A stretch of 64,000 nt of DNA from Botryococcus braunii. Taxonomy: Eukaryota; Chlorophyta; Trebouxiophyceae. Position numbers and translations under genes: made by a program. This document shows positions 15,762 to 46,714 of the stretch, one piece after another. Below the pieces are notes generated by a model. It ran no database searches, was not told where the DNA came from, and was given only the letters and a program-made list of their open reading frames with translations. The DNA lies in NCBI GenBank assembly GCA_002005505.1, contig MVGU01001314.1:52501-116500 (forward strand). The letters run 5' to 3'. Position 1 is the first letter of the stretch; each line of letters starts with the position of its first letter.

Positions 15762-16688
15762 AAGTATGGTGGGCCAATAGCGTCGGGTGTGGCGCATGAC
15801 ATGAATTGAGGGGAGGTTTTGCGAACTCGTGACTTACCCTTTGAGATGCGGGTATTATGCTGGCTACACTGGCGTCAAATAGTTTCATATTGGAGCGGGT
15901 TTAAATCAAAATTCATTCTGGGGCCTTATGTAAACCATTTTAAAGATAAATTGTAGCCTTTCTGTTGTGGCGCTAGCACTTTGTATTCATGAAGCCTTAT
16001 CATCCTACGCCCGCTAGTAGTGATGAATGGCTTAACAAGAGACATCCCTCCTCCTTTGCTTATAACCAGATGTCAAGGGCCTGAAGATTGCTGCTGTCCA
16101 GCCTAGATGCCTCCAAATGTTGCGCGCCAGGACTGAACCACCACAGCATGCCCACGTGTGTCTGTAGTTTCTTGGCTGGCATTGTGCCACGGGTGAGGAG
16201 AATTGACATGCTTTCCTTCTATGTTTGCAGCACATCCACAAGCTCTCTTAAAAGGGAAGTTTGGGTATGAGACACCTGGTCAGTGCCTGAAGTAATGGGA
16301 TAGAGAATCGACAACCGATGGCTAGTTGCCACAACTGCCGTCCTCACCTTTGTTAAACATGTGCACCACTTGCCGCACCAACGCATGCTATGTGATTTGA
16401 TGTGATAGAAAGTTTCAACATTACCCAATGCTCCTAGAAGTGTAGCCCCTTCGGCTCTCCGCCACCTGATCTGCCAGGTGCTGAACGGGTTGTTGCGAGC
16501 CGAGAAGCGTAGCGCGTCGGGCCGTACGTGCCGCGAGGCCCGCTTGTCCACCACATGAGGGTGCCATCAGGCACGTGCAGCCTACTACACTAGCATGTGC
16601 TAAGGTCACAACACCTCATGCTGTCACGCCTCGTTAGCCCATGTTGCACCCCCATACCCCACGTGGCATTAGCGACCCTTGAGCACTT
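15762..16688. other. Spacer S, copy 1
   Basis: A 927-bp segment found only between M copies. Its ends (AAGT...ACTT) continue the inverted symmetry of M for four more bases. On the minus strand a weak frame (16554 to about 16050, one stop) resembles coding sequence but has no recognised domain. It may be cargo captured by the element. Confidence 0.5.
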
Positions 16689-17458
16689 CACCCCCCCAAA
16701 TAAGTTATTCCCACCCTGACCGTCAATTGGCGTAATTCGTGTGGCATTTCGCAAGGAAATTAATATCGGCTCTGAAACTCCAGCACGTGATAGTACATCA
16801 GTACACGTGACTGCCATGCCAGCATAAACTCTTCCCGGTCCGCCCTTAAAGACGGTGCCACGTCGCCTTAGAGAACCCCCTGCAGTACAAACCTCGCGGA
16901 AGCAAACAGGGCCTTCGAAACAAGACGCCGCAGCGTCTTGAGCATGAAAGCTTCTTACGATTAAACTTGAGGTTAAGTATTCTTACTGTTAAAGATTGTT
17001 GTCACGAAGTTTGGCGTTATTCGGTGCTGTGGGGGCTCCGTTGTAGCGGACATGACGAGATCGAGGTTAAGGAGCCATGCGCTCGGCAGTTTTTGAGAAC
17101 AAAAGGGCTTTGTTCCTTCTCTCTAGGGCCCAGCTGACCAAAAGAGGAGAGTTTTGGGTGGACTCGTGGGGGACTTGAGGTCTGCATGGGGCCCCAATCG
17201 GAAGCCGGGATTCGGTGTTGCCTAGGAAAAAAGAGGCAAGAGATGGGATGGGTCCCGCCGTTAAGGCCGGATTTTCTGGTTTTTGTCAAAAATGATATTT
17301 CGATGCTACTACTGCTATAGGAATGAACCAAACTCTGTTTTACGGACATAAGTTGCAAGCACGAAAGGGACCATTTAATGCCTTCAGTGGCAGGAAAAGG
17401 CGAATCCCTGACAAGCAGTGCCCAAATTACGGGTGGGAATAACTTATTTGGGGGGGTG
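16689..17458. mobile_element. Non-autonomous TIR element M, copy 2
   Basis: 770 bp with the same terminal repeats and apparently the same sequence as copy 1. Confidence 0.85.
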
Positions 17459-18385
17459 AAGTATGGTGGGCCAATAGCGTCGGGTGTGGCGCATGACATG
17501 AATTGAGGGGAGGTTTTGCGAACTCGTGACTTACCCTTTGAGATGCGGGTATTATGCTGGCTACACTGGCGTCAAATAGTTTCATATTGGAGCGGGTTTA
17601 AATCAAAATTCATTCTGGGGCCTTATGTAAACCATTTTAAAGATAAATTGTAGCCTTTCTGTTGTGGCGCTAGCACTTTGTATTCATGAAGCCTTATCAT
17701 CCTACGCCCGCTAGTAGTGATGAATGGCTTAACAAGAGACATCCCTCCTCCTTTGCTTATAACCAGATGTCAAGGGCCTGAAGATTGCTGCTGTCCAGCC
17801 TAGATGCCTCCAAATGTTGCGCGCCAGGACTGAACCACCACAGCATGCCCACGTGTGTCTGTAGTTTCTTGGCTGGCATTGTGCCACGGGTGAGGAGAAT
17901 TGACATGCTTTCCTTCTATGTTTGCAGCACATCCACAAGCTCTCTTAAAAGGGAAGTTTGGGTATGAGACACCTGGTCAGTGCCTGAAGTAATGGGATAG
18001 AGAATCGACAACCGATGGCTAGTTGCCACAACTGCCGTCCTCACCTTTGTTAAACATGTGCACCACTTGCCGCACCAACGCATGCTATGTGATTTGATGT
18101 GATAGAAAGTTTCAACATTACCCAATGCTCCTAGAAGTGTAGCCCCTTCGGCTCTCCGCCACCTGATCTGCCAGGTGCTGAACGGGTTGTTGCGAGCCGA
18201 GAAGCGTAGCGCGTCGGGCCGTACGTGCCGCGAGGCCCGCTTGTCCACCACATGAGGGTGCCATCAGGCACGTGCAGCCTACTACACTAGCATGTGCTAA
18301 GGTCACAACACCTCATGCTGTCACGCCTCGTTAGCCCATGTTGCACCCCCATACCCCACGTGGCATTAGCGACCCTTGAGCACTT
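17459..18385. other. Spacer S, copy 2
   Basis: 927 bp, apparently identical to the spacer at 15762-16688. Confidence 0.5.
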
Positions 18386-19156
18386 CACCCCCCCAAATAA
18401 GTTATTCCCACCCTGACCGTCAATTGGCGTAATTCGTGTGGCATTTCGCAAGGAAATTAATATCGGCTCTGAAACTCCAGCACGTGATAGTACATCAGTA
18501 CACGTGACTGCCATGCCAGCATAAACTCTTCCCGGTCCGCCCTTAAAGACGGTGCCACGTCGCCTTAGAGAACCCCCTGCAGTACAAACCTCGCGGAAGC
18601 AAACAGGGCCTTCGAAACAAGACGCCGCAGCGTCTTGAGCATGAAAGCTTCTTACGATTAAACTTGAGATTAAGTATTCTTACTGTTAAAGATTGTTGTC
18701 ACGAAGTTTGGCGTTATTCGGTGCTGTGGGGGCTCCGTTGTAGCGGACATGACGAGATCGAGGTTAAGGAGCCATGCGCTCGGCAGTTTTTGAGAACAAA
18801 AGGGCTTTGTTCCTTCTCTCTAGGGCCCAGCTGACCAAAAGAGGAGAGTTTTGGGTGGACTCGTGGGGGACTTGAGGTCTGCATGGGGCCCCAATCGGAA
18901 GCCGGGATTCGGTGTTGCCTAGGAAAAAAGAGGCAAGAGATGGGATGGGTCCCGCCGTTAAGGCCGGATTTTCTGGTTTTTGTCAAAAATGATATTTCGA
19001 TGCTACTACTGCTATAGGAATGAACCAAACTCTGTTTTTACGGACATAAGTTGCAAGCACGAAAGGGACCATTTAATGCCTTCAGTGGCAGGAAAAGGCG
19101 AATCCCTGACAAGCAGTGCCCAAATTACGGGTGGGAATAACTTATTTGGGGGGGTG
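18386..19156. mobile_element. Non-autonomous TIR element M, copy 3
   Basis: 771 bp, with an extra T near 19038 and one transition near 18668 relative to the other copies. Its right end abuts the CGT target duplication. Confidence 0.85.
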
Positions 19157-22656: not shown

Positions 22657-23994
22657 ATGACAAAAAGGGGCAAAGAAAAGGAAAGTAGCAGTGAAACAGC
22701 AATGTCTCAACCTGGAGAAGTCAGTGGGGCCACTCCAGGGCAGTCTATGACCGGGACACAATCAGCCACTGCAGAACCAAAGGTGGAGATTGACAAGGCA
22801 GCCTACATCCCCAATACCTCTAATCCAAAGATGACTGTCATGCTTGATGATGGAGGGCGCAATTTTGAATTTTGGTATGAAAATTTGGAGGCGTGCGCAA
22901 ACACCAAGGGGGTCAGAGCGGCTTTGGAGAGGCCAATGCCAGGGTCGGTGGAGAACTCAGCCATCAAGCAGTGGCTGATCCAGTCAGTTCCAGTCATCTG
23001 GCATTCTCAGATCTCATGCCACAAAGCAGCGTTCGACTTCATCGCGTGGGTGAAGAACAGTCACACTGGAGGGAGCAACCAAGACATCAACCTTGAGTGG
23101 TACAAGGAAATGGAGCAGGGCATCAAGACAGGGGAGACACTCAAGGTCTACCTCTACAGAATGATGGATCTGGCTACAAGTCTCAGAAACAACGCGTTCA
23201 TCCTCTTGGACCACAATGTTGGGGAGCTGATGGTGAAGGGCCTCCCTCCTGTGCTGAGGCTCGAGTCCCTGGAGGTTATGGCAACCGACAAGCCGCCATT
23301 GGAGCTGATTCAAAGAATCCTGCGCGCCGCAGCCAGCCGTGGGTACAAGGACCCACCTGCAGAGGGAACACCTCAGGCCATGGCAGCTGCAGCAGTGGCT
23401 GGTCCCTCTAGGGGGGTAGCTGGAGCGTCATCAAGCGCTGGAGCTGCACCAGGAGTGGGAGCAGTACCGGGAGTTGGAGCAGCACTACCAGCAAACGAAC
23501 AGCCTCCCGCTGGCCCCTCTGCAACTACTTTTGGTGGCAGGGGGCGTGGACCTGGCAGGGCAAGAAGGCCCAGAGAGGAGCTTACATGCCACTTCTGCAA
23601 GGCAAAGGGCCACTTCATGACTGACTGCGGACCGCTCAGGCAGCTGCAGGCTCTGCATCAAAACATGCAAGCGGCAAGCGTTGGGCCTGCAGCTTACTGG
23701 GGCCAGGGAGGCCCACAGTCGTCTCCTCAAGCCTGGTGGGACCATGGATCTGGCCGGGGTGGCCCGCCTTCATCCGCTTCCAGCCCTGGACCTCCTTCAG
23801 CATATAACTATCCAACAAGTCAACACACGTTTCCGGGGTGGCATTTACCACCTCCACCCCCTCCTTCTGGTGAGGCGATGTTTATCTCTCTCAATGTGCT
23901 TGCCCCAACTTCGCATGGAGCTAGCAGCACATCTTGGTTAATAGATAGTGGTGCCTCTGTGCATATAGTCAATGATCTCTCATTGCTCCATAAT
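22657..23994 (+). pseudogene. Copia A gag and protease start
   Basis: The ATG at 22657 starts a gag polyprotein. The core (FEFWYENLEACANTKGVR, GETLKVYLYRMMDL, LLDHNVGELMVKGLP) builds the particle. An Ala/Gly/Pro linker and a zinc knuckle CHFCKAKGHFMTDC follow. Then comes the protease motif WLIDSGASVHIVND with the catalytic Asp. The frame is cut at 23994 by copia C and resumes at 31303 or just after. Confidence 0.92.
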
Positions 23995-24723
23995 TGTACA
24001 ATTCTGGGCGTAATGTTCCCTGCATGTCCCGGCACGAGGGTGTAAAGCCCGGCGACACTCTTGTTGTGCGTAGAGAAACAAGCAGTGTCGTCTGTGAGTG
24101 AGGAGACTTGACTGGCAACAGTAAAGTAGCAAACACCCGAAGTGCTTTTGATGTCCCAATCAAGTCTTACAATGTTTATTGCTCTCTCTCGTCACTCGGC
24201 AACTCGAACTATCCTATCAACAACGTTACTGATAGTCTGCATTACCAATGTCCGATGAGCTAAGCAATTACGCCTTTCTATTGTACCTTATCTAGACCCT
24301 TCCTAAACCATTGTTCATGTTCATATGATGTCTTGACAGCAGTTTACCTGCATGTCCCGGCACGAGGGTGTTAAGCCCGGCGACACTCTTGTTGTGCGTA
24401 GAGAAACAAGCAGTGTCGTCTGTGAGTGAGGAGACTTGACTGGCAACAGTAAAGTAGCAAACACCCGAAGTGCTTTTGATGTCCCAATCAAGTGCCTCAA
24501 TCCTTCGAGCCAGGAGCATATAGCCTTTCGAGCAAACCGTGTCCGATTATCTAATCCTTTCTTATTTAACGTGCAATTGGTCTAGATTGGTTCTGGCAGA
24601 ACTCCTGGGTTCTGCCACTGATTACTCATTCTACTAACTGCTCTCTCTGGTAATTGACGATGATCTGGCCACTATTACTCTTCTGAGGGAAAGGCACCAA
24701 AATGTTCTGTCACTATTATAACA
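23995..24723 (-). repeat. Copia C 3' LTR
   Basis: 729 bp, apparently identical to the 5' LTR at 30574-31302. It is preceded on the minus strand by the AAGGGGAAG polypurine tract. Confidence 0.9.
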
Positions 24724-24741
24724 CTTCCCCTTGCCTTTTCC

Positions 24742-27700
24742 TCACAAAAACTTGGCCAACCCCAGAGCATCACGATGTCCCTGAAACACCTGCCTTGTCA
24801 AAGGCTTTGTGAATATATCTGCTACATTCCTTGCAGAAGGAACGTATTTCACATCCACCTGACCCAATGCAATAGCTTCCCGTGCAAAATGGAAGCTGAT
24901 CGCGATATGCTTGGTATGCTTAGAGAACACTGGATTTCTGAGATGATTGATACATCCCTGATTATCACAGTGGATCTTCACAATCCACGGAGAAATCCCA
25001 ATTTCTTCCAGGAATCCCTTCATCCAATTTGCCTCTTTGACAGCTGCACTTGCCGCCATAAACTCAGCCTCTACAGTGGATGTGGCCACTGCAGACTGCT
25101 TTTTGCTTCCCCAAACTACTGCTCCTCCAAACACCCGAATTACGTAACCAGTAGTGGAGAACCTGTGATCCTGATCACCACCATAATCTGCATCCACAAA
25201 GCCCTCCAGCTCTGTGTCCTTCCCTCCAAGTACTAACACAAGATCCCTGGTAGCCATCAGATATTTCAACACTCTGATGGCTTCATTCCAATGAGCAGTG
25301 GTGGGAGTAATCCTATACCTGGAAAGCACTCCCACAGCCTGGGAAATATCAGGCCTTGTGGTGTTGGCAATGTACAACAGTGACCCAACCAGTTCACAAT
25401 ATCTGTGACCTGGAGGGAAGGGACTCCCAGCTCCAATGCTGGCACTGTTGTCCTTAGACATAGGTCGCTGTGTGGCCACAAAATCCTTAGTCATAGGGGT
25501 GTCAGGCCCCACAGACTCCAGATCCAGCCCAAATTTCTCAACTAGGGCATCAATCTTTGGGATGCAACTCAAAGAAATCAACCCCTTCTCTCTATCTCTC
25601 ATTACTTGACAGCCCAAGAAATCTTTCACCTCTCCAAGATCATGGATGGTGAACTCCTGCTTCAGCAACCCTTCACTCATGCCCTTTGAAACTATCAATA
25701 GATCATCAACATAAATCAGCACAAAGGATTTCCCTCCATCCACAGAACATTTCACATAGACCCCAGCATCACTCTTGCACACCTCATATCCCATGGTATG
25801 TAGCTTCTCATTAAGGGTCTTATGCCATGCCCTTGGAGCTTGCTTCAGGCCATACAATGCCTTCTTCAAGCGACACACAGTGTTCCCATCCCCATTCTCA
25901 AACCCAGGAGGTTGTGTGACATAGACCTCCTCCTCTAATTCACCATTTAGGAAAGCAGTCTTGACATCCACCTGGTGAATTTCAAGACCCTCCTGTGCAG
26001 CCACTGACAGTAAAGCTCTTCTAGACCCATAACTGCTGGTGGGAGCAAATACCTCCATCACATCTACTCCTGGAATTTGCCTACACCCTTGAGCCACCAG
26101 CCTGGCCTTGAATCTAAGCACATTGCCGTGTGCATCCATTTTCACTGAAAAAATCCAGTGAACTGGGATAACTTTGTGCCCACGAGGTCTAGGAACAAAC
26201 TCCATCACCTCATGGGCATCTAAGGAGTTTTGCTCCTCCTGCATTGCAGCCTTCCAGTACTCCCACTGTGGGGACTGCTGTGCCTCCTTGAGACTTGAAG
26301 GCACACTGATCTTCCCAAAACGCACCCCAGTATGCTTCCCCTGCTCTTGCTTACTCTTACTCTCACTCTCATCCACTACTCTTTCGCTGAATGTCGCCGC
26401 ACAGCACGTGGGAACTGTTGGTAAAGGTCCAGATCTCTCCCTCTGCTCTTTCTCTCTCTTAGACTCACAGCTTGCCCTCTCAAGCTTGCTGCCAGCCTCT
26501 CTCACATCATCCTCCCAAACACAGGTACCTCTCGGAAAGCTCTTGTAATTGGGGGAGTTCTCACACTGTCTTGGCTTCCGATTCACCTCCTCAGACACAC
26601 TCTCACATGGCTGACGGTTTGCAGTCCCGTCAGGACTCTCACAGACACGTGGACCACTCTGCATGGCATGAGCACTTGGTCTATTTTGCTGCTGTGCCCA
26701 TGTCTCTCTCTCTCTCTGTCTGCTGCCCACTAGACATGAGCGCTGGGGCGCAGGCCCAGCAGCACACTCCCATGCATGGCCCGTGCTTGCGTGGCTGGCA
26801 CCACATTGTCCTTGGGCATCACTAATAGAGTTCTCATCGCTAACATTACTCTCAGGCACTGAGCAGGTCCCACCCATACATCTCAGCTCACTTGGACCAT
26901 CTGCAGTCTGATCAGAGACTGCCCCCCTCTCATCTCTTACAAGTAAAGCAGGTCTCTCGGTGTCCTGCCCCAATTCCTGCGCTTCCCCTGGTCCTTGTGA
27001 CTCTGTGTCACCTTCAGTCCTCCCCTCTCGCTCACAGCTCTCTCCCTTATCCTGTGCCAGCAGGATATCTCGAGCCGCAGTTCGTTGCTCATAGCGTTGA
27101 GCCCGCGACAGTCCGTCCGGAGGCAGGATGGTCGTAGCCGGATGCGGGTTACGCAGTGACTGCTGTATTCGCTCTAAAGTCTGATGATGTTGTCCGCTGT
27201 CTGTGCTTCCTCGCGCCAGTCGTTGGATGGCGTCCAGAGCCCCGGACTGATCCAGGTCCGGCTGCTGCTCTCCCGTGCTTGCTTCGGGAGACACAATGAG
27301 ACTGCCCTCCTCCTGGGAAGGCTTCCCCTGACTATCAGGCTCAGTTTCAGCCTGGTCAGAGGGTACTGGGAAGGCGCTGTCAGGTCTACTGCTGGAGCAT
27401 GGGCTGCTGACAGTCTGGTTCTGCATACTGCGCTGTGACAATGGCACCACTGGATTGCTGCTGTGCAATTGCCCTGATAAGTCTTCAGGGTATGAAAACT
27501 GCTGAGGCTGGTCAGGGAGAACAGCCATTCCCACCCTAGTAGCTCCCCGAATGTGTTCCACAAATTGAACATCTCTGCTCTCTCTCCAGATCCCCCCTCC
27601 CATATAGATACGATATGCCTTTGACACTGGGGAGTAACCAGTGAACATCCCAGCCACAGCCTTTGGTGCAAAGGTCCCCCTCTGCTGGTCAGGAACGTGC

Positions 27701-29979
27701 ACAAATGCAAGGCATCCCCATGTACGCAGCAGGGATACATCAGGCTTATATCCCATGAACATTTCACAGGGAGAGAGGGGCCTGCCTGTGCTGGGTCCCA
27801 TATTTAGGAGAGTGCAGGCTGTCTCCAGGGCTTCCTTCCACATAACAGGGCTTGCTGCAGCAAAATTGAGGAGGGTCCTGGTGCGCTCCTTGAGGGTTCT
27901 GTTGGCTCTCTCAGCAACTCCATTCTGCTGAGGGGTATATGGGGCAGATGTCTCCAGCTTAGTGCCCTGGGATGCACAGAATTCCTTGAACTTGGCATTC
28001 AAGAACTCTGTCCCTCTGTCGCTGCGGATGCACTTCACAGTAGTTTCCTTCTCAGTTTGCCAATACAGAATTAGGTCTCTGACAACAGCTGCAATTACAT
28101 CTTTTGACTTCACTGGCAGCACTGCCTTCCACCCAGATGCCTCATCAGTTACAGTTACCCAAAAACGTTCCCCAGTAATGGCTGCTGGTGATATGGGACC
28201 CACAGTGTCAATGTGGATTCTGTCAAGGGGTTTTTCAGCAGGTCTAGAGCTTTCACCAAATGGGGGACGTGCATGCTTCCCCTCAATGCACGCTTCACAG
28301 TACTTAGGGCAATTTTCACAGGGGGACATCGAGGTGTCTAAGCCAATAACCAGTTGCTCACTGCTCAGGCGTTTCATCCAGGGGTCCCCTGGGTGTCCCA
28401 ATCTGCTGTGCCACAGGAAACGCTTGGCACAGTCATGACTTTGACCTTTGGAGCATTTCTTCTTCAAGGCAGCTGTCACTGAATAAGGGACCTTCACTGG
28501 TGCTACTGGGAGGCAGTTGTGAATATAATAAAGACCATTCTCTGGTTTCACAGGCATCTGCCAACCACTCGGTCCTGAGACAGCAGTGAATGCTCCCAGT
28601 CTATCTGTACTGAACCGGATTCCATCACGCAGAGCAGCAGATACTGAGAGAATATTGGTGGTAGCTGAGGGAACACACTGGACATGATGCAGCCACACTG
28701 GAATATGCTGAGAGGACAGGAGGCACACTGACCCAGTAGCAACAATGCCCCCAGTGGCATCAGATGTAGCAAGCAGCAGTGGAATAGGGTGGTCATGTAC
28801 TGTAGGGGCATGCAGCAGGGACACGTTGTTCACAAGATGTACAGACGCTCCACTGTCCACAAGCCACGACTGTTTGGACTGCTGGTGTTTACTGCCATCC
28901 AGCACATTATAGGACACCACGTATGGCATACCTTCTGAGGGAGGAGAAGGTGGTCCTGGAGGAGGGTGCAGCAGTGGGAACGCTCCAGTGCCTGGGAATG
29001 CATGCTGCACGCTTGGAGGCGGTTGAGGCGCACCAGGAAACTGACCTTGGGGCCACATGGCAGCAAGTTGCTGTACTGCTGCCACCACATTGCGTTGTGT
29101 CTCTGCATCCCTTTGGCGTTTGCGGCAGTCTCTCCAGAAATGGCCTTTCCTGTGGCAGTAGTTGCATGTGCCTCTCACTTCTCCCCTTGATTCTGTGTCT
29201 GCTGGCTGTTTGGAGGGATTGGCCCCGCTAGAGGAAGAGGCAGGAGCAGTCTCTCTTTGAGCAGGCATTGCTTGCATCACCATGGCAGGCTGCTCTCCAT
29301 CATCGTTGTAGCCAGCAGCTTCTGCAGTGGTGGAAATGAGAGCTGCCAGTTCATCCAAGGGGTAAGCTACTGCAGTGGGCAGTAGACCAGGAGGATTAGC
29401 TGCTGCTGGCAGTCCCTGCACGATCTGGGAGGCCACATGACCATCCAGGAGGTCATGTCCGTTGCGTTTCAAGCAGCTTTTGAGATTTATCATCCTGGAC
29501 ACATACTGAGAGATTGTTTCTCCACGCCTCATCCCTTTTGACATTTCCTTCAGCCAGTCTGCGTTGGCTTGAGTGTTGTAACCACCAACAAATTTCTTGC
29601 AAATAAACAGATATGCATCATATGCTGACGGCTTACTTGACACTTCCCCTAACCATTCCTCTGGAACTGACTCGTACAACAGAAGCATTGCAGCTGCATT
29701 ATGGATAGTTCCAGGCATGGCTGACTGAATGGCAGGAAAAGAACCCTTGGCACTATTGGCAGCAGTGAAGGCATTGTCCCATACCACAAAATTTGTGCCA
29801 TGACGATCCAGTTTAATATGCACTTTGACTTGGGTGGCAATGACCTTGGGAAGTACATCTCCCTCGCCCTTTGATGTGCTGGGTGTACACGGCTGTCGTG
29901 TGGGAGACGATGTAGATGCTTCCTCTGCTGTGGGCTCCTCCTCGGATGGCTCCCTTGATTTGGATCTCTTTCTCGCCAT
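24742..29979 (-). CDS. Copia C gag-protease-integrase-RT-RNase H polyprotein
   Basis: A single frame of 1745 residues. Zinc knuckle CNYCHRKGHFWRDC near residue 270. Protease VDSGASVHLVN near 374. Integrase HHCC (HSRLGHPG and CPKYCEACIEG), then the catalytic core from HIDTVGP (about 588) through SDRGTEFLN and PQQNGVAER. The linker at about 830-1240 is hydrophilic and poorly conserved. RT includes FKARLVAQGCRQ, VDVKTAFLNGELEEEVYV and the active site YVDD near 1423. RNase H has VDADYGG (about 1594), STVEAEFMA and KHIAISFHFARE. The ATG lies 11 nt after the ORF0 stop. Relative to D, about five residues are missing after the YVDD region. It ends in TGA. Confidence 0.95.
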   Translation of the reverse strand: MARKRSKSREPSEEEPTAEEASTSSPTRQPCTPSTSKGEGDVLPKVIATQVKVHIKLDRHGTNFVVWDNAFTAANSAKGSFPAIQSAMPGTIHNAAAMLLLYESVPEEWLGEVSSKPSAYDAYLFICKKFVGGYNTQANADWLKEMSKGMRRGETISQYVSRMINLKSCLKRNGHDLLDGHVASQIVQGLPAAANPPGLLPTAVAYPLDELAALISTTAEAAGYNDDGEQPAMVMQAMPAQRETAPASSSSGANPSKQPADTESRGEVRGTCNYCHRKGHFWRDCRKRQRDAETQRNVVAAVQQLAAMWPQGQFPGAPQPPPSVQHAFPGTGAFPLLHPPPGPPSPPSEGMPYVVSYNVLDGSKHQQSKQSWLVDSGASVHLVNNVSLLHAPTVHDHPIPLLLATSDATGGIVATGSVCLLSSQHIPVWLHHVQCVPSATTNILSVSAALRDGIRFSTDRLGAFTAVSGPSGWQMPVKPENGLYYIHNCLPVAPVKVPYSVTAALKKKCSKGQSHDCAKRFLWHSRLGHPGDPWMKRLSSEQLVIGLDTSMSPCENCPKYCEACIEGKHARPPFGESSRPAEKPLDRIHIDTVGPISPAAITGERFWVTVTDEASGWKAVLPVKSKDVIAAVVRDLILYWQTEKETTVKCIRSDRGTEFLNAKFKEFCASQGTKLETSAPYTPQQNGVAERANRTLKERTRTLLNFAAASPVMWKEALETACTLLNMGPSTGRPLSPCEMFMGYKPDVSLLRTWGCLAFVHVPDQQRGTFAPKAVAGMFTGYSPVSKAYRIYMGGGIWRESRDVQFVEHIRGATRVGMAVLPDQPQQFSYPEDLSGQLHSSNPVVPLSQRSMQNQTVSSPCSSSRPDSAFPVPSDQAETEPDSQGKPSQEEGSLIVSPEASTGEQQPDLDQSGALDAIQRLARGSTDSGQHHQTLERIQQSLRNPHPATTILPPDGLSRAQRYEQRTAARDILLAQDKGESCEREGRTEGDTESQGPGEAQELGQDTERPALLVRDERGAVSDQTADGPSELRCMGGTCSVPESNVSDENSISDAQGQCGASHASTGHAWECAAGPAPQRSCLVGSRQRERETWAQQQNRPSAHAMQSGPRVCESPDGTANRQPCESVSEEVNRKPRQCENSPNYKSFPRGTCVWEDDVREAGSKLERASCESKREKEQRERSGPLPTVPTCCAATFSERVVDESESKSKQEQGKHTGVRFGKISVPSSLKEAQQSPQWEYWKAAMQEEQNSLDAHEVMEFVPRPRGHKVIPVHWIFSVKMDAHGNVLRFKARLVAQGCRQIPGVDVMEVFAPTSSYGSRRALLSVAAQEGLEIHQVDVKTAFLNGELEEEVYVTQPPGFENGDGNTVCRLKKALYGLKQAPRAWHKTLNEKLHTMGYEVCKSDAGVYVKCSVDGGKSFVLIYVDDLLIVSKGMSEGLLKQEFTIHDLGEVKDFLGCQVMRDREKGLISLSCIPKIDALVEKFGLDLESVGPDTPMTKDFVATQRPMSKDNSASIGAGSPFPPGHRYCELVGSLLYIANTTRPDISQAVGVLSRYRITPTTAHWNEAIRVLKYLMATRDLVLVLGGKDTELEGFVDADYGGDQDHRFSTTGYVIRVFGGAVVWGSKKQSAVATSTVEAEFMAASAAVKEANWMKGFLEEIGISPWIVKIHCDNQGCINHLRNPVFSKHTKHIAISFHFAREAIALGQVDVKYVPSARNVADIFTKPLTRQVFQGHRDALGLAKFL

Positions 29980-29990
29980 GCTGATGTCCC

Positions 29991-30515
29991 TCAGTCTGCG
30001 TTAGGTTCTGACAGCTGCGCGTCCCTGTCGTCGTCTCCGTCGTCTGTGTCCGTGCACCACTCCTCTGGGCTGAATCCTTTTCTGCTGCCCAGAAGGGAAA
30101 GTAGGAAGTCCTCGTCAAGAGTAGCGAGAGCACACTCCACTGCTGTGTAGGCTGCCCTTTCTTCCCAGTACTCGGGTCTGTTGGGTCCTCCGAGCTGTTG
30201 TAGATGTCGTTCAAATAATGCTCGCGTGACGAAGCCTGGGTCCGCGTTGATGAATGAACACTCCCACGCAGTTACTTTGTATGCTGGGTAAACAGAGAAT
30301 CGTCGTCTGAACCACAGAGGCTGTTCGAGTTTGCCCAGTCCGTACGCGCGGCTGACAAAATCCTTCACTATAAATGCTCGTTCTTCTGGTGTTCTCGGTC
30401 CAGTATCTCCTCCAGCTCGCCTCAGGCTATCATATGTCGGTGGTGAAGGAGGTGGGGGAATAAACGGTCTTTTACCGCCGGTCGCCATCCTTCCGCTCTG
30501 CTTCGTTCGTCCCAT
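29991..30515 (-). CDS. Copia C ORF0 with histone H3 tail-like N terminus
   Basis: A 174-residue frame begins about 40 nt after the primer site and ends 11 nt before gag. It starts MGRTKQSGRMATGGK. After Met removal, residues 2-5, 8, 11-14 equal those of histone H3 (R2 T3 K4 Q5, R8, T11 G12 G13 K14) in the same register, with Met at position 9. The rest is not histone. It aligns with ORF0 of copia D through AFIVKD, YPAYK, PGFVTR and an Ala-rich helix, then ends in an acidic tail (TDTDDGDDD). No known domain was recognised. Conservation between diverged families implies selection. Histone mimicry is inference. Confidence 0.85.
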   Translation of the reverse strand: MGRTKQSGRMATGGKRPFIPPPPSPPTYDSLRRAGGDTGPRTPEERAFIVKDFVSRAYGLGKLEQPLWFRRRFSVYPAYKVTAWECSFINADPGFVTRALFERHLQQLGGPNRPEYWEERAAYTAVECALATLDEDFLLSLLGSRKGFSPEEWCTDTDDGDDDRDAQLSEPNAD

Positions 30516-30573
30516 CGTCGGCTCGGAACATGCTTTCAGTTGCCCAGCTCAAGAGTTTGGTGGGCCCATAACC

Positions 30574-31302
30574 TGTACAATTCTGGGCGTAATGTTCCCT
30601 GCATGTCCCGGCACGAGGGTGTAAAGCCCGGCGACACTCTTGTTGTGCGTAGAGAAACAAGCAGTGTCGTCTGTGAGTGAGGAGACTTGACTGGCAACAG
30701 TAAAGTAGCAAACACCCGAAGTGCTTTTGATGTCCCAATCAAGTCTTACAATGTTTATTGCTCTCTCTCGTCACTCGGCAACTCGAACTATCCTATCAAC
30801 AACGTTACTGATAGTCTGCATTACCAATGTCCGATGAGCTAAGCAATTACGCCTTTCTATTGTACCTTATCTAGACCCTTCCTAAACCATTGTTCATGTT
30901 CATATGATGTCTTGACAGCAGTTTACCTGCATGTCCCGGCACGAGGGTGTTAAGCCCGGCGACACTCTTGTTGTGCGTAGAGAAACAAGCAGTGTCGTCT
31001 GTGAGTGAGGAGACTTGACTGGCAACAGTAAAGTAGCAAACACCCGAAGTGCTTTTGATGTCCCAATCAAGTGCCTCAATCCTTCGAGCCAGGAGCATAT
31101 AGCCTTTCGAGCAAACCGTGTCCGATTATCTAATCCTTTCTTATTTAACGTGCAATTGGTCTAGATTGGTTCTGGCAGAACTCCTGGGTTCTGCCACTGA
31201 TTACTCATTCTACTAACTGCTCTCTCTGGTAATTGACGATGATCTGGCCACTATTACTCTTCTGAGGGAAAGGCACCAAAATGTTCTGTCACTATTATAA
31301 CA
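30574..31302 (-). repeat. Copia C 5' LTR
   Basis: On the minus strand, module 1 ends at 30927 followed by GTAAAC, and module 2 ends at 30599 followed by GGAACA. The other LTR (23995-24723) has the same layout. Runs TGTTATAATAG to GAATTGTACA. Confidence 0.9.
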
Positions 31303-34300
31303 ATAATGCAGTTATGCATAGACAGCCTCTTCCTCTGCACTTGGCAACCTCAGACGCCAAGGGAGGAATCATTGCATCTGGGTCTGTATGCCTTGTGAAT
31401 GCAAGGCACGAAGTATTCTGGCTGCACAATGTGCAGTGTGTTCCTTCTGCGCATACCAACCTCATTTCAGTCACTGGTGCAATTCAGGATGGAGCATCTT
31501 TCCTGACTGACACTGCAGGTGGTTACACAGCCATGAAGGGACCTGAAGGGTGGTGTGGAGATATCACCCGCGCACGAGGTCTGTTTTTTTTGGAGTTTGT
31601 TAGTCCTGTCAGAGGGCAGCAAGTTGGCTGCAGACATATTGATCACATGGCTGAGGCGTCTCATCTTAGGAAAGGACACGTGTGTAGCGAGAGATCTCTG
31701 TGGCATGCTAGGTTAGGTCATCCTGGTGCCAGCAGCATGCAGAGGTTCTCCAAGGAAGATCTGGTTACAGGAATCAATATCTCCCTTGCTCCCTGCTCTG
31801 AGTGCCCCAAGCACTGTGAATCGTGTATACAAGGGAAACACTCCAGACCTCCTTTCCCTGTATCTTCCAGGCCTGCACATCACCCACTCGATAGAGTCCA
31901 TGTGGATACTGTGGGTCCCATATCACCTCCTGCCATCACAGGTGAACGATATTGGGTCACTGTAGTGGATGAAAGTTCACACCAAGTTGCCTCCCTGCCT
32001 GTGAAGTCAAAGGATTGCATCCCAAAGGCTGTGATAGACCTGCTCCGTTTTTGGCAGACCCAACGAGGCACGGTTGTGAAGTGTGTGAGGACTGACAGGG
32101 GTTCAGAGTTCCTGAACCAGCAATTCAAAGAGTTTTGTGCTCAGCAGGGCACTAAGATGGAGTCCTCAGCGCCCTACACGCCTCAGCAGAATGGGGTGGC
32201 GGAGAGGATGAATAGGACCCTGAAGGAGCGAACAAGGACTCTGTTGGTCCATGCTGCAGCAGACCCCTCCCTTTGGAAGGAGGCGCTTGAGACAGCTACC
32301 CTCCTCTACAATGTGGGTCCTACTTCAGGCAGGTCCCTGACCCCCATGGAATTATTCTTTGGTGTCAAACCTGATGTGTCTGTGCTGCGCACGTTTGGCT
32401 GTGTAGCCCATGTGCACATTCCCAGTGGCCAAAGGTCTGTTTTTGGGCCCAAGACCATCCCTGGGATGTTTACTGGTTATTGTCCCCAGTCTAAAGCGTA
32501 TCGTGTGTACGTGGGGAATGGAGTGTGGAAGGAGAGTAGGGACGTCAGCTTTATCGAGCACTTGAGGGGGGCTGAGAGAGTGGGTCTATCAAAGGTCCAG
32601 CCTGGGTCTGTCTATGATTCTAGGATATCACCCCCCCTTGGCAGTGAGAATCTGGCAACGCCTCAAGCAATTCCCTCTGCTGCTCCACCCACGTTCTGGG
32701 ATGAGGAGGATGACCATGGAGTGGAGACGCTTTCCACTGGGGCTCCTGGGACCTCTAGACTTTGTGCTGGGGATCAGTCTGGAGACGGGACCACAGCAGC
32801 ACATGACCAAGGAAACCCCACCAGCCTGGATCCTACTGTTGGGACCCCAGAACCATCTCAGCACTCGTGGTCGGTGCTTGAGCATATGCAGAATCTGGCC
32901 AGGGGGGGTGTAGAAACTCAATCCCAGGTAGAAAAAATGCAGAAGGTACAAGAGGGGTTGCGAATGCAGGGGAAGTCACAAATTCCCCTTCCTCCAGGGA
33001 CCACCCTTACAAGGGAGCAGCGTTATGTACAGCGCGTGGCTAGGAGAGAGCATTCTGACATCCCATTGCATGCCCCTGACCCAGGTCAGGCAATTGTGAG
33101 TGAGCCAAACATGGTTGGTCTCCCTGATATGCAGGGGCAGGTTGAGACAGTCGAGGCTATGTTCGGTGCAGATGTAAGAGATGAGAGCAGTGGGTTAGAC
33201 ATGCCAGCAGTAGGGGAAGCTGGTGCCCAATCCCAGTCACTGGCTAGTCATGCTTATGGTGTGCAGGCTGACATTGTAGGCGCAGCTCAGGCAAGTCTGG
33301 GTAGTGTGCCCAAGTGTGAGTCCAGGAGAGAGAGAGAGAGCTGCTGCTCCCCTCTGCATTGCGGAAGGTGCGAGAATGTAAGGGTGCTGCACATGAGTCC
33401 AGTAGTCAAGGAGAGAGAGAGAGACTTGAGAAGGAATCAGATAATCCCGGCAGTACTGCCCAGTCCCAGCATAAGGTACATAATGTACCTTATTCTGGCA
33501 ACCAGGGAGAGAGAGAGAGAGAAGGGAACAGCATCAGTAAGGCTGACAGCCCTGCTGCACCACAGCATAAGGTACAGAGTGTACCTTCTGTCACGTTGGG
33601 AAAAGTTCACGTGCCCTCAAACTTGAGGGAAGCCCAGCGCTCACCTCAGTGGGAGTTTTGGCAGCAGGCAATGCAAGAGGAGATGGAGTCTTTAGACACC
33701 CATGAGGTTATGCAGTATGTGGAAAGACCCCATGGGCAGAAAGTTATCCCTGTTCATTGGATTTTTTCTACAAAAAACGATGCACATGGGAATGTCACTC
33801 GGTTTAAAGCAAGATTGGTTGCCCAGGGTTGCAGACAGATTCCTGGTATAGATGTTGGTGAGGTTTTTGCACCTACCAGCAGCTATGGTGCTAGGAGAGC
33901 TGTGCTGGCAGTGGCTGCCACACAAAATCTTGAGATCCACCAAGTGGATATCAAGACAGCTTTTCTCAATGGGGAGTTGGAGGAAGAGGTCTATGTGACC
34001 CAACCACCAGGATTTGAGAATGGCAACACGAGAGTTGTGTGCAAGCTCAGGAAGGCACTCTACGGTCTTAAGCAAGCCCCACGGGCTTGGCACAAGACCT
34101 TGAGCGACAAGTTGAGCGTGATGGGGTATAGTGTGTGCAAGAGCGACGCTGGGGTATACATCAGGAGGGCCCCTGATGGTAATCTGTCGTTTATTCTTGT
34201 TTATGTCGATGATCTTCTCATAGTTGCCAGAGTGGTTGCAGAGATTGAGTGGGGGAAAGAGTTATTGAAGAAGGACTTCACCATCCATGATTTGGGAGAG

Positions 34301-39349: not shown

Positions 39350-39354
39350 AATTC

Positions 39355-40044
39355 TGAAATATTCCGGGCTTGGCGTATCCTGCATGGTGGCGGCACGGAG
39401 GGTGTTAGACGATGTCCTCCTACTTGTGCGTTGTTAAGTAGGCACGGACATATACAAGTCAAGGACTGGTTAGCAACTGATTGATAGACACCCGGAGTGC
39501 CACTATAGTTCCAACCAAGTGTTACAATCTCTCTCATCTCTCCTAACAAGGTGACGCAGTTCAAACACGCCTGACCTGCTCTCACCCAGGTCGTGTTCAT
39601 TACTTTGTCCGATGAGCTAAACTCAACTCCATATGTCTAGCATGTTCTAACAATGTTCATCTGAGTGCTAAATCCAGGAATACAATAAGGATTAAGTCAC
39701 CTGCATGGTGGCGGCACGGAGGGTGTTAGACGATGTCCTCCTACTTGTGCGTTGTTAAGTAGGCACGACATATACAAGTCAAGGACTGGTTAGCAACTGA
39801 TTGATAGACACCCGGAGTGCCACTATAGTTCCAACCAAGTGCCTTCCCTATCCGTGCTTGCCCCATATGCCTCCTTTCTACAAACGTGTCTGTAACTTGC
39901 GTTATGGTAGTCTTCGTTCAAATGCATGTATTGCCTGGCAGAACTCAGAGTTCTGCCTCTCTTTCCTAATTGGTATTGTCTTCATCCGGAGACTTGCCAT
40001 TATTTCTCCTCTGAGGGAAAGGCATAAAATTAATTAACACAACA
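39355..40044 (-). repeat. Copia D 3' LTR
   Basis: 690 bp, nearly identical to the 5' LTR. The polypurine tract lies at about 40045-40055 on the minus strand (AAGGGGAAG). Confidence 0.9.
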
Positions 40045-40062
40045 CTTCCCCTTGCCTTTACC

Positions 40063-41580
40063 TCACAGAAACTTGGCCAGTCCCAGTGAGTTACGATGTC
40101 CCAGAAACACTTGTCTAACTAGTGGTTTGGTAAAAATGTCAGCCACATTTCTAGCAGATTGAATGTACTTGAATTCAACTTGCCCCTTTGCAATAGCTTC
40201 ACGGGCAAAATGACAGCTAATTGCAATATGCTTTGTGTGTTTGGAGTACACCGGATTCCTCAGGTGGTTTATACACCCTTGGTTGTCACAATGAATCTTC
40301 ACTATCCACGGTAACACTCCAATTTCCTCCAGGAAACCTCTCAGCCAATTTGCTTCCTTCACAACAGCACTTGCTGCCATGAATTCAGCCTCCACTGTTG
40401 AAGTGGCAACAGCAGATTGCTTTTTACTTCCCCACACCACTGCTCCTCCAAACACAGTGAGGACAAAGCCCGTGGTAGAGAAGCGATGATCCTGATCACC
40501 TCCATAGTCGGCATCCACATAGCCTTCTAGCTCTATCTCCCCCCCTCCGAGAGTTAGAACCAAATCTCGGGTTCCTTTCAGATACTTCAACACACGGATG
40601 GCTTCATTCCAATGTGCTGTGGTGGGAGATATGCGATAACGAGACAATACACCTACTGCCTGAGCTATATCGGGACGTGTGGTGTTGGCTATATACAGAA
40701 GAGACCCTCCTAACTCACAGTAACGGTGACCTGGAGGTAGTGGACTGCCAGCACCAATGCTGTCGCTCCCATCTCTCAGTGCAGGCCTTTGGGACATTAC
40801 GAAATCTTTTGTCATGGGAGTATCAGGTCCCACTGACTCAAGATCCAAGCCAAATTTCTCTACAAGTGCATCGATTTTAGGGATGCAACTCAGGGTGATC
40901 AGCCCTTTATCTCTATCTCTCATCACTTGACATCCCAAGAAATCCTTCACTTCCCCAAGATCATGGATGGTGAACTCTTTCTTGAGGAGTCCCTTCACTC
41001 TCTCGATTTCTGACATACCCTTGGAAACTATCAGAAGATCATCAACATAGATCAGCACATAGGACTTTCCTCCATCAGTAGAGCATCTCACATACACTCC
41101 CGCATCACTCTTGCACACGTCATACCCCATGACTTCAAGTTTGTCATTTAGGGTTTTGTGCCAGGCACGTGGAGCCTGCTTCAGGCCATACAACGCCTTT
41201 CTCAATCGGCACACAATATTCTTATCACCATTCTCAAAGCCAGGAGGTTGTGTTACATATACTTCCTCCTCAAGCTCACCATTCAGAAAGGCGGTCTTAA
41301 CGTCCACCTGATGAATTTCACAGCCCTCTCTTGCAGCAACAGCAAGCAGAGCTCTTCTAGCTCCATAGCTACTAGTAGGAGCAAAGACCTCCATCACATC
41401 CACTCCAGGGATTTGTCTGCATCCCTGTGCCACTAATCTGGCCTTGAATCTCACCACATTGCCATGTGCATCCATTTTCACTGAAAATATCCAGTGAACT
41501 GGAATAACCTTATGTCCACGAGGTCTCGGCACATACTCCATGACCTCATTAGTATCTAGAGAATTTTGCTCTTCCTGCAT
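40063..41580 (-). pseudogene. Copia D RT and RNase H
   Basis: RT motifs FKARLVAQGCRQIPG, VDVKTAFLNGELEEEVYV, ALYGLKQAPRAWHK and YVDD. RNase H motifs VDADYGGD, TSTVEAEFMA and KHIAISCHFARE. The frame is continuous with the upstream protease-integrase frame except for one TAG, where A, B and C have CAG (Gln) in the context SPQWE. It ends in TGA next to the 3' LTR. Confidence 0.92.
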
Positions 41581-41601
41581 AGCTGCCTTCCAGTATTCCC
41601 A

Positions 41602-44415
41602 CTAGGGAGACATCTGTGCTTCTCTCAAATTAGAGGGAACGTGAATTTTCCCAAATCTGACACCTGTGTGCTTTTCCTCTGAATTGCCTGATTTTCTCTC
41701 ACTTTGTCCAGAACCCACTACTCTTCCACTGACACTCGCTGAGTTACACATCACAGGCTCTCCAGTAGGAGTAGAATGCTCTCTCATAGCACGCTCTCGC
41801 TTGGACTCACACTTGGCTTTGCACAAGTTACTCTGCTCATCCCTCACATCATCCTCCCATGCACAGGTACCTCTCGGACAGTCTTTGTAATTTGGAATTC
41901 CTTCACATTGTCCAGACTTCCGATTCACCTCCTCGGACACACTCTGACATGCCTGCAAGAGTTCAGACTCTTCAGGTCTCTCACAAGCAACATCGGGATA
42001 TGGCAGAGTGTCTGCATACTTCCCCTGATTTATGTGATCCACATGCCTCTCAGACCGACTGCATGTCACTGTTGGGAGTGACCTCACATCTCTGACATCA
42101 CTCTCCCAGGCACAGGTACCTCTCAGTGAGCACTTGTAATTTGGTCTGTCTCCACAATGTCTGTGCTCCTGATTCACCTCCTCCTCTCGTCCCTTACATG
42201 GAGTCAAGGATGCAGATCCTGTCTCCCGCTCACAATCATGTTTGGCTGGTGCAGAGGAAGCATATGATGCTTCCTCTGACCGGTGGCTGCCACCACAGTC
42301 CCGTCCAGGAGTGCTCTGACTGGACGGGTTGCCAGAAGAACTCTGCATGGTCACATCTCTTACATTTCTCTCAGTCACTGAACAGGACCCACCCATACTG
42401 CTCAGCTCCCCGGGACCATTTGCAGCTTTGCATGTAGCTGCCCCCCTCACTGCACTCACATGCAATTCATGCCCCTCATGTGAATCACCCTCTAGCTGCA
42501 CTTCCCCTGGTCCCTGTGACAGAGAGTCACATTCAGTCAACCCCTCTCGCTCTCTGCTCTCTCCCTTCTCCTGTGGCAGCAGGAGGTCTTTGGTGGCAGT
42601 GCGTTGTTCGTGTCGTTGAGCCCGGGTCAGGCCATCCAATTGGTGGTTGCGGCATTCAGACCTAGTTGGTCTGACGACCTCCTGGGCTCGCTCCATCTGC
42701 GGTCGAAGGTGGGAGTCTCCTCTCACTCCTCTGGCTAAGTCCTGTACTGCCTCCAGGGTTTTATCCATCTCCACTGGGTCACACAGTCTTCTGGATTCAG
42801 GCTCGGGCTCAGCCTCACTGGGGGGTCCTGTGACAGGCTGTGTGGGGAGGTTGTTGGAGGCTGGCAGGTACTCAGGCTCACTGTGTGGGTCATCAAGATC
42901 TGTCTCAAGGCTGATGTTGGTTGTGCCATGGGAGGTGCCGGGAAAGACTGGGGGAGTGTCACTTGCAGAGGGCTCAGGACACAGAAACTCTGTAGACTGT
43001 GTTGGGGAAACGCTCATGCCAACCCGAGAGGCTCCCCTGAGGTGCTCCACGAAAACCACATCTCTGCTCTCCTTCCAGATACCCCCTCCCACATAGATCC
43101 GATAGGCTTTGGAGGAGGCTGAGTAACCAGTAAGCATCCCTGGCACAGTTTTGGGGGAAAACACAGAGCGCTGGACATCAGGAATGTGCACAAAGGCCAA
43201 GCAACCCCAGGTACGCAATGGGGTTACATTTGGTTTGTGGCCAAAAAATAATTCTGATGGCGTGCGGTCCCTCCCGGTACTGGGACCCATGTTCAGTAGG
43301 GTGCAGGCAGTTTCCAGGGCCTCCTTCCACAACGTTGGACTGGCAGCTGCAAAAGCCAGAAGAGTCCTGGTACGTTCCTTGAGGGTGCGATTGGCTCTTT
43401 CAGCCGCTCCATTCTGTTGCGGGGTGTAAGGAGCTGAGGTCTCCAATTTAGTCCCCTGGGATGCACAAAATTCTTTGAACGTGGCATTCAGAAATTCAGT
43501 TCCACGGTCACACCGGACACACTTCACTTTGGTTTTCTTCTGGGTCTGCCAATATAGAATGAGGTCCCGCACAGCAGTACTGATGGCATCTTTGGACTTC
43601 ACATGCAGGACTGCCTTTAACTGAGATGACTCATCCAAAGCAGTCACCCAGTAACGTTCACCAGTTACTGCAGCAGGAAAAATGGGGCCCACAGTGTCAA
43701 TATGTACTCTGTCAAGTGGTTCAACAGCTGGTCTACTGCTTACTCCAAATGGAGGCCGAGACGTCTTTCCCTCAATACATGCTTCACAGTAGACTGGACA
43801 ATTGGAGCAGGGACATAGGGATGTATCAAGTCCCGAGACCAGGTCCTCATTGGTTAGGCGCTGCATCCATGTTTCACCTGGATGTCCCATTCTGCTATGC
43901 CAGAGGTATCGTCTGGCACAGTTGTGTGAGTTTTGGGTGGGGGTTTTGGGCTTCACAGCAGCTGAAATTCTTCTGTGGTTAACACTGGGACTCAGAGCTA
44001 CAACTTGATGAATATAAAATAGCCCTTTCTCTGCACTGATCCGAGACCTCCAGCTGTTTGGACCATAGACTTCAGTGAACGCTCCAACATCATCTGTGCG
44101 AAAGACTGCCCCATCCCGCAATGCTGCAGATATTGACAGTATGTTTGAGGTTGCAGAAGGAACACACTGAACATGATGTATCCACAGGGGAACTCCCACT
44201 CGACTGAGGATGCAGACAGAGCCAGATGCTACAATTCCTCCAGTGGCATCTGAAGTGGCCAGATGTAATGGGATGGGTTTGGCATGCACAGTTGGATTAT
44301 GTAGCAGGGTCACATCATTCACCAGATGTACAGATGCTCCACTGTCCACCAGCCAGGATTGCAGAGACGAATTTCTGACAGGAGTCTTCAGGATGTTGAG
44401 GGAAATTATGTATGG
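41602..44415 (-). pseudogene. Copia D protease, integrase and linker
   Basis: Protease VDSGASVHLVNDV, integrase HSRMGHPG with CPVYCEACIEG, then HIDTVGP, CDRGTEFLN and PQQNGAAER. The linker (about 42960 to 41640) is Ser/Glu-rich. It contains at least two copies of a motif of the form EEVN-x-C-x-PNYK-x-RGTCAWE-DVRD. Copia C has one copy. The upstream end is interrupted by the TRIM at 44416, with TATGG on both sides. Confidence 0.9.
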
Positions 44416-45107
44416 TGTAATATCTTGTGCCGATCTCAAGTTCGTGTGAGAATGACCTCACACAGGTGCGACCCGTCTGATAGCACCCCGCCAGCCAAGC
44501 TGGCCAGATTACGTAATGAGGTCATCGTACCCCGCTCTCCGATCACGCGCTATCGGCTCGATGCCGATCGGCTCCCTAACGGACCCTTCGCACTCGGAAC
44601 GTTACACCCTCCCCCACCTAGGCTCAAGCCGTCTCGGATTGAGGGGGATGCATCTCCCACACAGGAAGCACTACAGTCAAGAGTGTATCACGTCCTGACC
44701 AGCCACCTTCGCAGGAAGCCTTACAGACAAGAGTCCCATACCTCTTGCCCAGCCACCCGCCACCCTAGTCCCGGCAGACTAGTGGTAACGACAATCCACA
44801 CCCATGCTCATTTGGACTGCCCGCGGAGCACTCCCGGAAGTACAACCTCCGTCACCAGAAATCCATCTGGCTAATCAAGCTATGGTGATGGTCAGTGAAA
44901 CCGCCGATACCAAAGATGTAATATCTTGTGCCGATCTCAAGTTCGTGTGAGAATGACCTCACACAGGTGCGACCCGTCTGATAGCACCCCGCCAGCCAAG
45001 CTGGCCAGATTACGTAATGAGGTCATCGTACCCCGCTCTCCGATCACGCGCTATCGGCTCGATGCCGATCGGCTCCCTAACGGACCCTTCGCACTCGGAA
45101 CGTTACA
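44416..45107 (-). mobile_element. TRIM (miniature LTR retrotransposon)
   Basis: Two 191-bp LTRs (44416-44606 and 44917-45107), apparently identical, enclose 310 bp. On the minus strand the primer site TGGTATCGGCGG follows the 5' LTR (right side), and a polypurine tract GGTGGGGGAGGG precedes the 3' LTR. The internal region has no coding capacity. TATGG duplicates lie at 44411-44415 and 45108-45112. The primer site matches those of the gypsy elements here rather than copia, so a gypsy probably mobilises it. Confidence 0.93.
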
Positions 45108-45112
45108 TATGG

Positions 45113-46162: not shown

Positions 46163-46213
46163 AATTCCCCAGTTGTCTTATAAGTCCAGTACTCGCAAGG
46201 TAGCAGCAAGATC

Positions 46214-46714
46214 TTACTCTATGTCCCTCTCCACATCAGAGTCAGACTCCCACTCAGATTCTGAACGCAACTTGTCCCTTGAATTCTCCAAGTCTTTGAG
46301 CAACCCTGATGGCAAAGATGCCAACGCAGACTCAACAGCCAGATATGCAGTGCTTTCAGCTAATTCTTGTTCACGATTGATCCACTCGGTCGTACGGAAG
46401 TATGTTCGAAACTTGGCCCGAGTGACAAAACCTGGCTCTAGATTCACAAATGAGATTTCCCAAGGAGTAAACTTGTATGCAGGATAAATTAGGAATCTCT
46501 CTCTGAACCAGGTGGGTTGAGCTAGCGGACAGCCAACGTGAAGGTGAAAGATGTAGTCTTTGACGATAAAGGCTCTCTCGTCAGGATTGCGGTCTCCACG
46601 TTGTCCTCCTTCTCTGATTAGTTCGTTGTATGACGGAGGTCCTGATCTCAAGCGCGCTGGAACGTTGAGGTTGGTAGTCTTCCTGGCTGTTTGCTTTGTC
46701 CGCTTCTTCGCCAT
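46214..46714 (-). CDS. Copia D ORF0 with histone H3 tail-like N terminus
   Basis: A 166-residue frame starts about 50 nt after the primer site. It begins MAKKRTKQTARKTTN. Residues RTKQTARK and the Thr two residues later equal histone H3 positions 2-9 and 11, displaced by two extra residues at the front. The middle aligns with copia C ORF0 (DERAFIVKD, IYPAYK, EPGFVTRA, an Ala-rich helix) and the end is acidic (ESEWESDSDVERD). The overall plan is basic tail, compact middle, acidic tail. The domain is unknown. Sharing it with C, despite wide divergence elsewhere in the protein, supports a real gene. Confidence 0.85.
   Translation of the reverse strand: MAKKRTKQTARKTTNLNVPARLRSGPPSYNELIREGGQRGDRNPDERAFIVKDYIFHLHVGCPLAQPTWFRERFLIYPAYKFTPWEISFVNLEPGFVTRAKFRTYFRTTEWINREQELAESTAYLAVESALASLPSGLLKDLENSRDKLRSESEWESDSDVERDIE

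Follow-up and report, generated by a model that had tools for sequence, protein, structure and literature searches.

ORF0, the leading long ORF of a Copia-type retrotransposon in the alga Botryococcus braunii, very probably begins with a mimic of the histone H3 tail, as judged by sequence comparison, and in the clade of the reported copy (the M9 clade) methionine stands where H3 has Lys9. The first-pass annotation had proposed a naturally evolved, K9M-like decoy against H3K9 methylation. We hold it close to an even call that the M9-clade tail would be an unmethylatable pseudo-substrate for H3K9 methyltransferases, in the manner of H3K9M or EZHIP. The proposal stands in so far as the H3 mimicry is conserved and Met9 is fixed in this clade; however, sister clades carry Lys or Arg at position 9, so that the imitation of H3 reaches beyond a K9M decoy.

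The Copia Element and ORF0

The window, by which we mean the whole 64,000-nt stretch of DNA analyzed, contains a complete Copia-type element at 23995-31302 on the minus strand, with LTRs ending in TG...CA and a flanking 5-bp ATAAT duplication. Its parts are as follows.

23995..24723, minus: 3' LTR; the ATAAT target duplication occupies 23990-23994 and 31303-31307
24742..29979, minus: gag-pol, single open frame, 1745 aa, same Copia element as ORF0
29991..30515, minus: ORF0, M9-type, 174 aa; H3-like N-terminal tail, proline-rich linker, predicted helical core, acidic C terminus
30471..30515, minus: Met and codons of the putative H3-mimic tail GRTKQSGRMATGGK (residues 1-14); Met9 codon 30486-30488
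30516..30573, minus: leader from LTR to ORF0 start, 58 nt; holds the starts of two short upstream ORFs, of 6 and 19 codons
30574..31302, minus: 5' LTR of the minus-strand element, 729 nt, no difference from the 3' LTR

With LTRs agreeing in 729/729 nt and gag-pol open, the element is intact in the features examined, as the first-pass annotation had described it. Its assignment to Ty1/copia rests on the integrase (rve, 582-683) lying before the reverse transcriptase (RVT_2, 1257-1496) in one pol frame (Pfam), together with the LTR ends and the 5-bp duplication. No other long ORF lies between the 5' LTR and ORF0, whose stop falls 11 nt before the gag-pol ATG and whose translation (29991-30515, minus; 174 aa) begins MGRTKQSGRMATGGKRPF. 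The second upstream ORF (19 codons) overlaps the ORF0 start out of frame (30472-30573, minus), and both leader ORFs may regulate the translation of ORF0 or gag-pol. Elsewhere in the window (14991-18684), 300-nt repeat pieces with 100% identity occur three times, 1697 nt apart, forming a long-unit tandem array.

The reported protein matched no Pfam family at E<=0.001, and among 28 ORF0 members no histone family was matched at E<=1 (Pfam), nor was a histone-fold domain found after the tail. Capture of a histone gene was therefore rejected: no histone fold was found, and the H3-like part comprises ~14 residues, too few to be judged at the DNA level. Searches with Foldseek against the PDB and viral models, and with VIA, gave no credible fold for ORF0. 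An AlphaFold model from 11 sequences gives residues 1-20 a pLDDT of 49, shows helices between 28 and 141, and leaves the acidic C terminus unstructured; the tail is, in this model, disordered and exposed.

The H3-Like Tail

After the initial Met, the reported tail reads GRTKQSGRMATGGK and is identical, without a gap, to host H3 at positions 2, 3, 4, 5, 8, 11, 12, 13, and 14 (9/14), with Met at position 9 aligned with H3 Lys9. Translation and alignment to host H3, which has the canonical tail in three B. braunii genes, thus agree with the 9/14 match in exact register first reported. Removal of the initial Met is expected, as a prediction, because Gly or Ala comes after it. The M9-type tails include ARTRQTGRMSTGG as well as that of the reported copy. 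Two further loci (L032 and L035, on C224 and C256) represent divergent H3-like host sequences, one of which begins MARTKQS, and are possible H3 variants.

When residues 1-20 of ORF0 were shuffled 100,000 times, no shuffle reached nine in-register identities or an equal local score. The local scores of the reported tail are 54 against H3 versus 22 against H4, 28 against H2A, and 13 against H2B. Another histone tail as the model was rejected: H4, H2A, and H2B score 13-28 versus 49-57 for H3 with P0001, L062, and win46k, and 14-17 versus 30 with P0010. In a search of 177,635 distinct PDB sequences with a profile of 28 ORF0 proteins, all 29 matches at E<=1 were H3, H3 variants or peptides, or a Cse4 chain, aligned N-terminally. 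The best E value was 0.055, so that one such match alone would not suffice; each single match is weak, and the list is pure. Three tail peptides, picked as queries after the H3 resemblance was already known, had best E values of 0.18, 0.009, and 0.02, and the best 60 of their 107, 129, and 124 matches were all H3-type. Both the profile search and the shuffles thus place the match beyond chance.

Distribution of Tail Types in the ORF0 Family

ORF0 belongs to a large family: each of three member queries gave about 800 candidates in the 176-Mb genome, of which 150 places were scored, so that sampling of the family is incomplete and which loci were taken depends on the queries. The three relatives first found in a protein collection are EukProt gene models of Botryococcus braunii. 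Matches of ORF0 to 15-18 kb repeats by tblastn (E 0.04 to 0.23) were dropped as chance, and a scan of viral_contigs with P0010 as query brought up no relative.

The M9 clade contains the close subfamily that includes the reported ORF0 (MGRTKQSGRM[AS]TGGK), a 75%-identical subfamily (MGRTRQSGRMxTGS), and a third with MARTRQTGRM[SG]TG; 21 of the 54 copies read begin MARTRQT. The subfamily most often read, MARTRQTGRMSTGG, is nearer to H3 than the reported tail. A K9-type ORF0 is carried by a second Copia element in the window (39354-47495, minus), which has LTR-like repeats at both ends and its pol in two frames (41602-43890 and 40063-41580); the M9 and K9 types lie here at most 16 kb apart.

46214..46714, minus: K9-type ORF0 of the second Copia element, 166 aa, 46% identical
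46673..46714, minus: putative K9-type mimic tail; H3K9-aligned Lys codon 46679-46681

This K9-clade member resembles H3 2-11 and retains Lys9, and the K9-clade sequence KQTARKTT equals H3 4-11 with S10T as the sole change. Lys occupies position 9 in 21 of 22 K9-type copies with open frames >120 aa, the remaining copy having N; these 22 come from 30 loci (L068-L097), the rest being seven with K9 in broken or shifted frames and L076, whose tail is lost. With the K9-type query, 28 of 150 scored places match residues 1-80 or 1-81 only, 25 of them at the same 91% and with a 90-aa open frame; these short copies may represent a non-autonomous element of high copy number in which the H3-like tail, and not much more of the protein, has survived. 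The R9 clade is represented by two proteins on JGI contigs (THHRQTARRS and ARRRQTARRN), with Arg at position 9 in 2/2. In a fourth, distant group the H3 likeness is faint (P0015-P0017) or absent (P0019). Almost no variation is seen at Q5 and R8 across the ORF0 clades that were aligned (28 rows).

In a tree calculated from the core only, with the tail left out (37 rows), the K9 group, the R9 group, and the fourth group form one well-supported branch apiece; the M9 rows all fall together, joined by the truncated P0006, with weaker branch support on the M9 side (81/53). The tail type therefore goes with the rest of the ORF0 protein; the root of this tree is unsure, as is the order in which K, R, and M arose at position 9.

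The H3 likeness is uneven over the family. Of 100,000 shuffles, 0-13 equaled the H3 score for P0001, P0004, L062, L057, and L042 and 1-5 for win46k, P0008, and P0009, and the numbers were 408 for P0005, 135 for L050, 682 for P0010, 177 for P0011, 22,450 for P0015, and 73,784 for P0019. This pattern bears on the reading of the N terminus as a basic nucleic-acid-binding or nuclear-targeting stretch that resembles H3 incidentally. In every full-length clade the N terminus is basic; P0015 and P0019, the most distant relatives tested, are basic without resembling H3, and the likeness is weaker in P0005, L050, P0010, and P0011. However, shuffles that keep the composition rarely reach the H3 score in the eight members with the lowest counts, and the PDB profile matched only H3-type sequences and no other basic proteins; we consider this reading unlikely, and the residues conserved in the M9 clade, discussed below, also speak against it.

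Conservation of Met9 and Selection on the Tail

Position 9 is Met in 54/54 read copies of the M9 clade, corresponding to 39/39 distinct proteins. The copies derive from 58 loci (L001-L028 and L038-L067; the window copy is L003), of which 54 have a start codon and an open frame >120 aa; of the four left out, L022 and L028 show Met9 and L009 and L043 have no readable tail. A genome-wide pattern consisting of Met and the first eight residues was found at 216 places, with ATG at position 9 in 214 and two without. The first-pass annotation had suggested tabulating this residue and had named free variation among copies as evidence against a decoy; with Met9 fixed in the reported clade, position 9 does not vary freely there.

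Other positions are less uniform. Position 4 is Arg in 44/54 and Lys in 10/54 copies, and positions 10, 13, and 14 are variable. The earlier emphasis on matches at K4 and K14 thus holds for the reported ORF0 and its close subfamily, but neither residue is conserved in the clade and they were rejected as essential parts. Arg8 is kept in 38 of the 39 distinct M9 proteins through synonymous codon changes; the codons in use are five for R8 (Arg), four for T3 (Thr), and three for R4 (Arg). Also kept are T3 (38 of 39), Q5 (37), T11 (33), G12 (38), and M9 (39), which charge, as a basic stretch would require, leaves unexplained. The M9 proteins thus present Met at the acceptor position (39/39) with Arg at -1 (38/39) in an H3 context, the arrangement of a K-to-M peptide.

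Nei-Gojobori estimates for the M9 clade put pN/pS at 0.26 for the tail, 0.69 for the adjoining linker, and 0.29 for the core; pS ranges over 0.46-0.56 (tail 0.49, linker 0.46). In the K9 clade, the ten-residue tail segment has a pN/pS of 0.107, the lowest of five segments. The sample comprises 22 of the 39 distinct M9 and 15 of the 18 distinct K9 proteins, with related copies pooled and hence non-independent. As pN/pS in the tail is low despite diverged synonymous sites, the constraint acts on the amino acids; within the M9 clade it extends over the tail but scarcely over the eleven residues that follow. The H3 match therefore lies under protein-level selection, as seen in pairs of related, non-independent copies.

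In many copies the start of the protein is delimited by an upstream stop. A stop codon lies three codons 5' of the ATG in 21/21 MARTRQT copies and immediately 5' of it in 10/10 MAKKRTK copies, so that the N terminus of these is set by the sequence. An in-frame ATG further upstream, which could lengthen the N terminus, is present in 7/54 M9 copies. In the L038-L041 subfamily, an in-frame ATG lies 8 codons 5' of the MGRT start and could bury the mimic if used. The start context differs between clades, with T at -3 in 22/22 K9-type starts, a poorer context than the purine of the M9 starts.

Alternatively, Met9 might owe its conservation to use as an internal start codon, from which leaky scanning would yield a shortened ORF0. 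Both ATGs of the reported ORF0 have A at -3 and G at +4, and the annotated relative P0006 starts with MSTG, resembling the residues from Met9 onward. Over the clade, however, the Met9 ATG has C at -3 in 34/54 copies whereas every first ATG (54/54) carries a purine at -3 together with G at +4; the K9 and R9 proteins have no Met at this position, and the constraint on residues 2-8 would be left unexplained. We regard leaky scanning as very improbable.

A Possible Decoy for H3K9 Methyltransferases

As a decoy, ORF0 would be a Copia accessory protein whose disordered N terminus imitates the host H3 tail around Arg8-Lys9. The M9-clade tail would offer no lysine for methylation at position 9 and mostly none at 4, because Met9 is invariant and Lys4 is mostly replaced by Arg. 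Preceded by Arg8, Met9 would enter the lysine channel of a host H3K9 methyltransferase loaded with SAM and occupy it, and H3K9 methylation would be lowered or displaced during expression of the element; the helical core and the acidic C terminus might serve to place or multimerize ORF0. Since a basic residue at position 4, R8, and M9 are the residues that such binding would want, the decoy reading was chosen for the M9 clade. The translation of ORF0, removal of its Met, the target enzyme, its inhibition, and the benefit to the element are steps that we infer.

Published work on H3K9M provides the model: in a G9a structure, the Met of an H3K9M peptide occupies the lysine pocket and residues 3-12 are ordered, H3K9M shows improved, SAM-dependent binding to the methyltransferase, and in fission yeast a single K9M gene blocks H3K9 methylation in a dose-dependent way (PMC5030085). 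This dose-dependence would count against a decoy, the dose of ORF0 being an assumption, as does Gly at position 7 of the M9 clade in place of H3 Ala7. For GLP/G9a, Arg at -1 is described as critical, H3K4 makes polar contacts with two Asp, and K4 trimethylation causes a mild loss of affinity; the fungal Dim-5 tolerates Ala at -1, so that the need for Arg is not universal (PMC2797608). R4 could keep contacts of the K4 type with these Asp residues.

On the host side, a search for a SUVH-type enzyme, from which intron-split genes are hidden, brought no H3K9 methyltransferase to light, a point against the decoy: SRA exon matches lie on contigs C126 and C176 and 11 SET places on nine other contigs. 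Pre-SET had no match in the genome by the same kind of search, and the control was likewise without a match, so that the silence of this search is no sign of absence.

EZHIP is a separate natural protein with a K27M-like peptide and flanking disorder that inhibits PRC2; placed at the key position of an H3-EZHIP fusion, Met or Ile lowers the mark whereas Lys or Arg does not (PMC6513997). Given the sister clades with K9 and R9, and Lys and Arg being non-inhibitory in the EZHIP case, the family as a whole cannot function by inhibition. The function common to the clades may be the engagement of a K9 writer or of another H3-tail partner, with the Met form as a later sharpening. More specifically, and with rather more doubt, one lineage would carry a methylatable K9 mimic, whereas its sister has fixed Met9, mostly lost Lys4, and would poison the host H3K9 methyltransferase.

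A lesser but serious possibility is that the tail binds another H3-tail reader, chaperone, or modifier and tethers the element complex to chromatin or recruits a host factor, with residue 9 not acting. The occurrence of M, K, or R at position 9 according to clade, with Q5 and R8 nearly invariant, would fit such a partner, and so would the K9-clade tail being the most constrained of the five segments noted above. K9-clade tails may be methylated on this lysine and then read by a chromodomain protein, as with the self-methylation motif of G9a; methylated H3-like motifs of G9a and GLP are bound by HP1 (PMC9768651). Chromodomain frames are common in the genome, with 150/150 scored places above the cut-off, and many are retroelement-like. 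Against this stands the invariance of residue 9 in the 54 M9 copies while its neighbors vary, which an indifferent partner would not require; furthermore, M and R are unable to carry the K9 marks that readers use. The scored chromodomain places come from 1236 candidates, and many of the open frames are exactly 1382 or 1198 aa long, presumably chromodomain-carrying retroelements.

Comparison with Known Systems

Histone mimics of viruses and other parasites are known, as is one K-to-M mimic, and few element-encoded factors are known by which transposons resist histone-based silencing. Among the matches listed, open-licence titles and abstract openings contained neither a transposon-encoded H3-tail mimic nor a natural H3K9M-like protein. 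A paper on Botryococcus genomes describes the class I elements of the B race as mainly LTR elements, and the words "histone" and "Copia" are absent from its main text (PMC11286282). If true, the decoy reading would place a natural H3K9M-like inhibitor on a mobile element, would extend K-to-M inhibition from engineered histones, tumors, and EZHIP to an algal arms race, and would offer a source of naturally selected inhibitor peptides. The natural K9- and M9-type versions within one genome form a built-in comparison, for which a one-residue swap and a peptide assay would be a cheap test.

The closest likeness is to the engineered H3K9M, with which ORF0 shares an H3 tail context where Met, preceded by Arg8, stands in for Lys9. 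Without its Met, MARTRQTGRMSTGG is identical in 11/13 residues to the H3K9M peptide of the G9a structure (PMC5030085), K4R and A7G being the sole differences over the 13 residues. Unlike H3K9M, ORF0 is a separate transposon protein and no nucleosomal histone, and is a putative inhibitor. EZHIP (CXORF67) is similarly a natural non-histone protein with Met at a target-lysine position and flanking disorder; however, it concerns H3K27 and PRC2 in mammals, whereas the ORF0 mimic concerns H3K9, is N-terminal and in register, and belongs to a many-copy retrotransposon. The histone mimic of influenza NS1 is likewise an H3-like stretch encoded by a selfish genome but is described as C-terminal, tied to the H3K4 mark, and without a K-to-M change (PMC12937675). 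The self-methylated motifs of G9a and GLP are H3-like with a lysine followed by a threonine, as in KQTARKTT of the K9 clade (PMC9768651), but belong to the host enzyme. VANC of the Arabidopsis VANDAL transposons is a transposon-encoded counter to silencing, as ORF0 would be; unlike ORF0, it binds in a sequence-specific way to noncoding regions of VANDAL copies, and the abstract describing it mentions no histone mimicry (PMC10398659).
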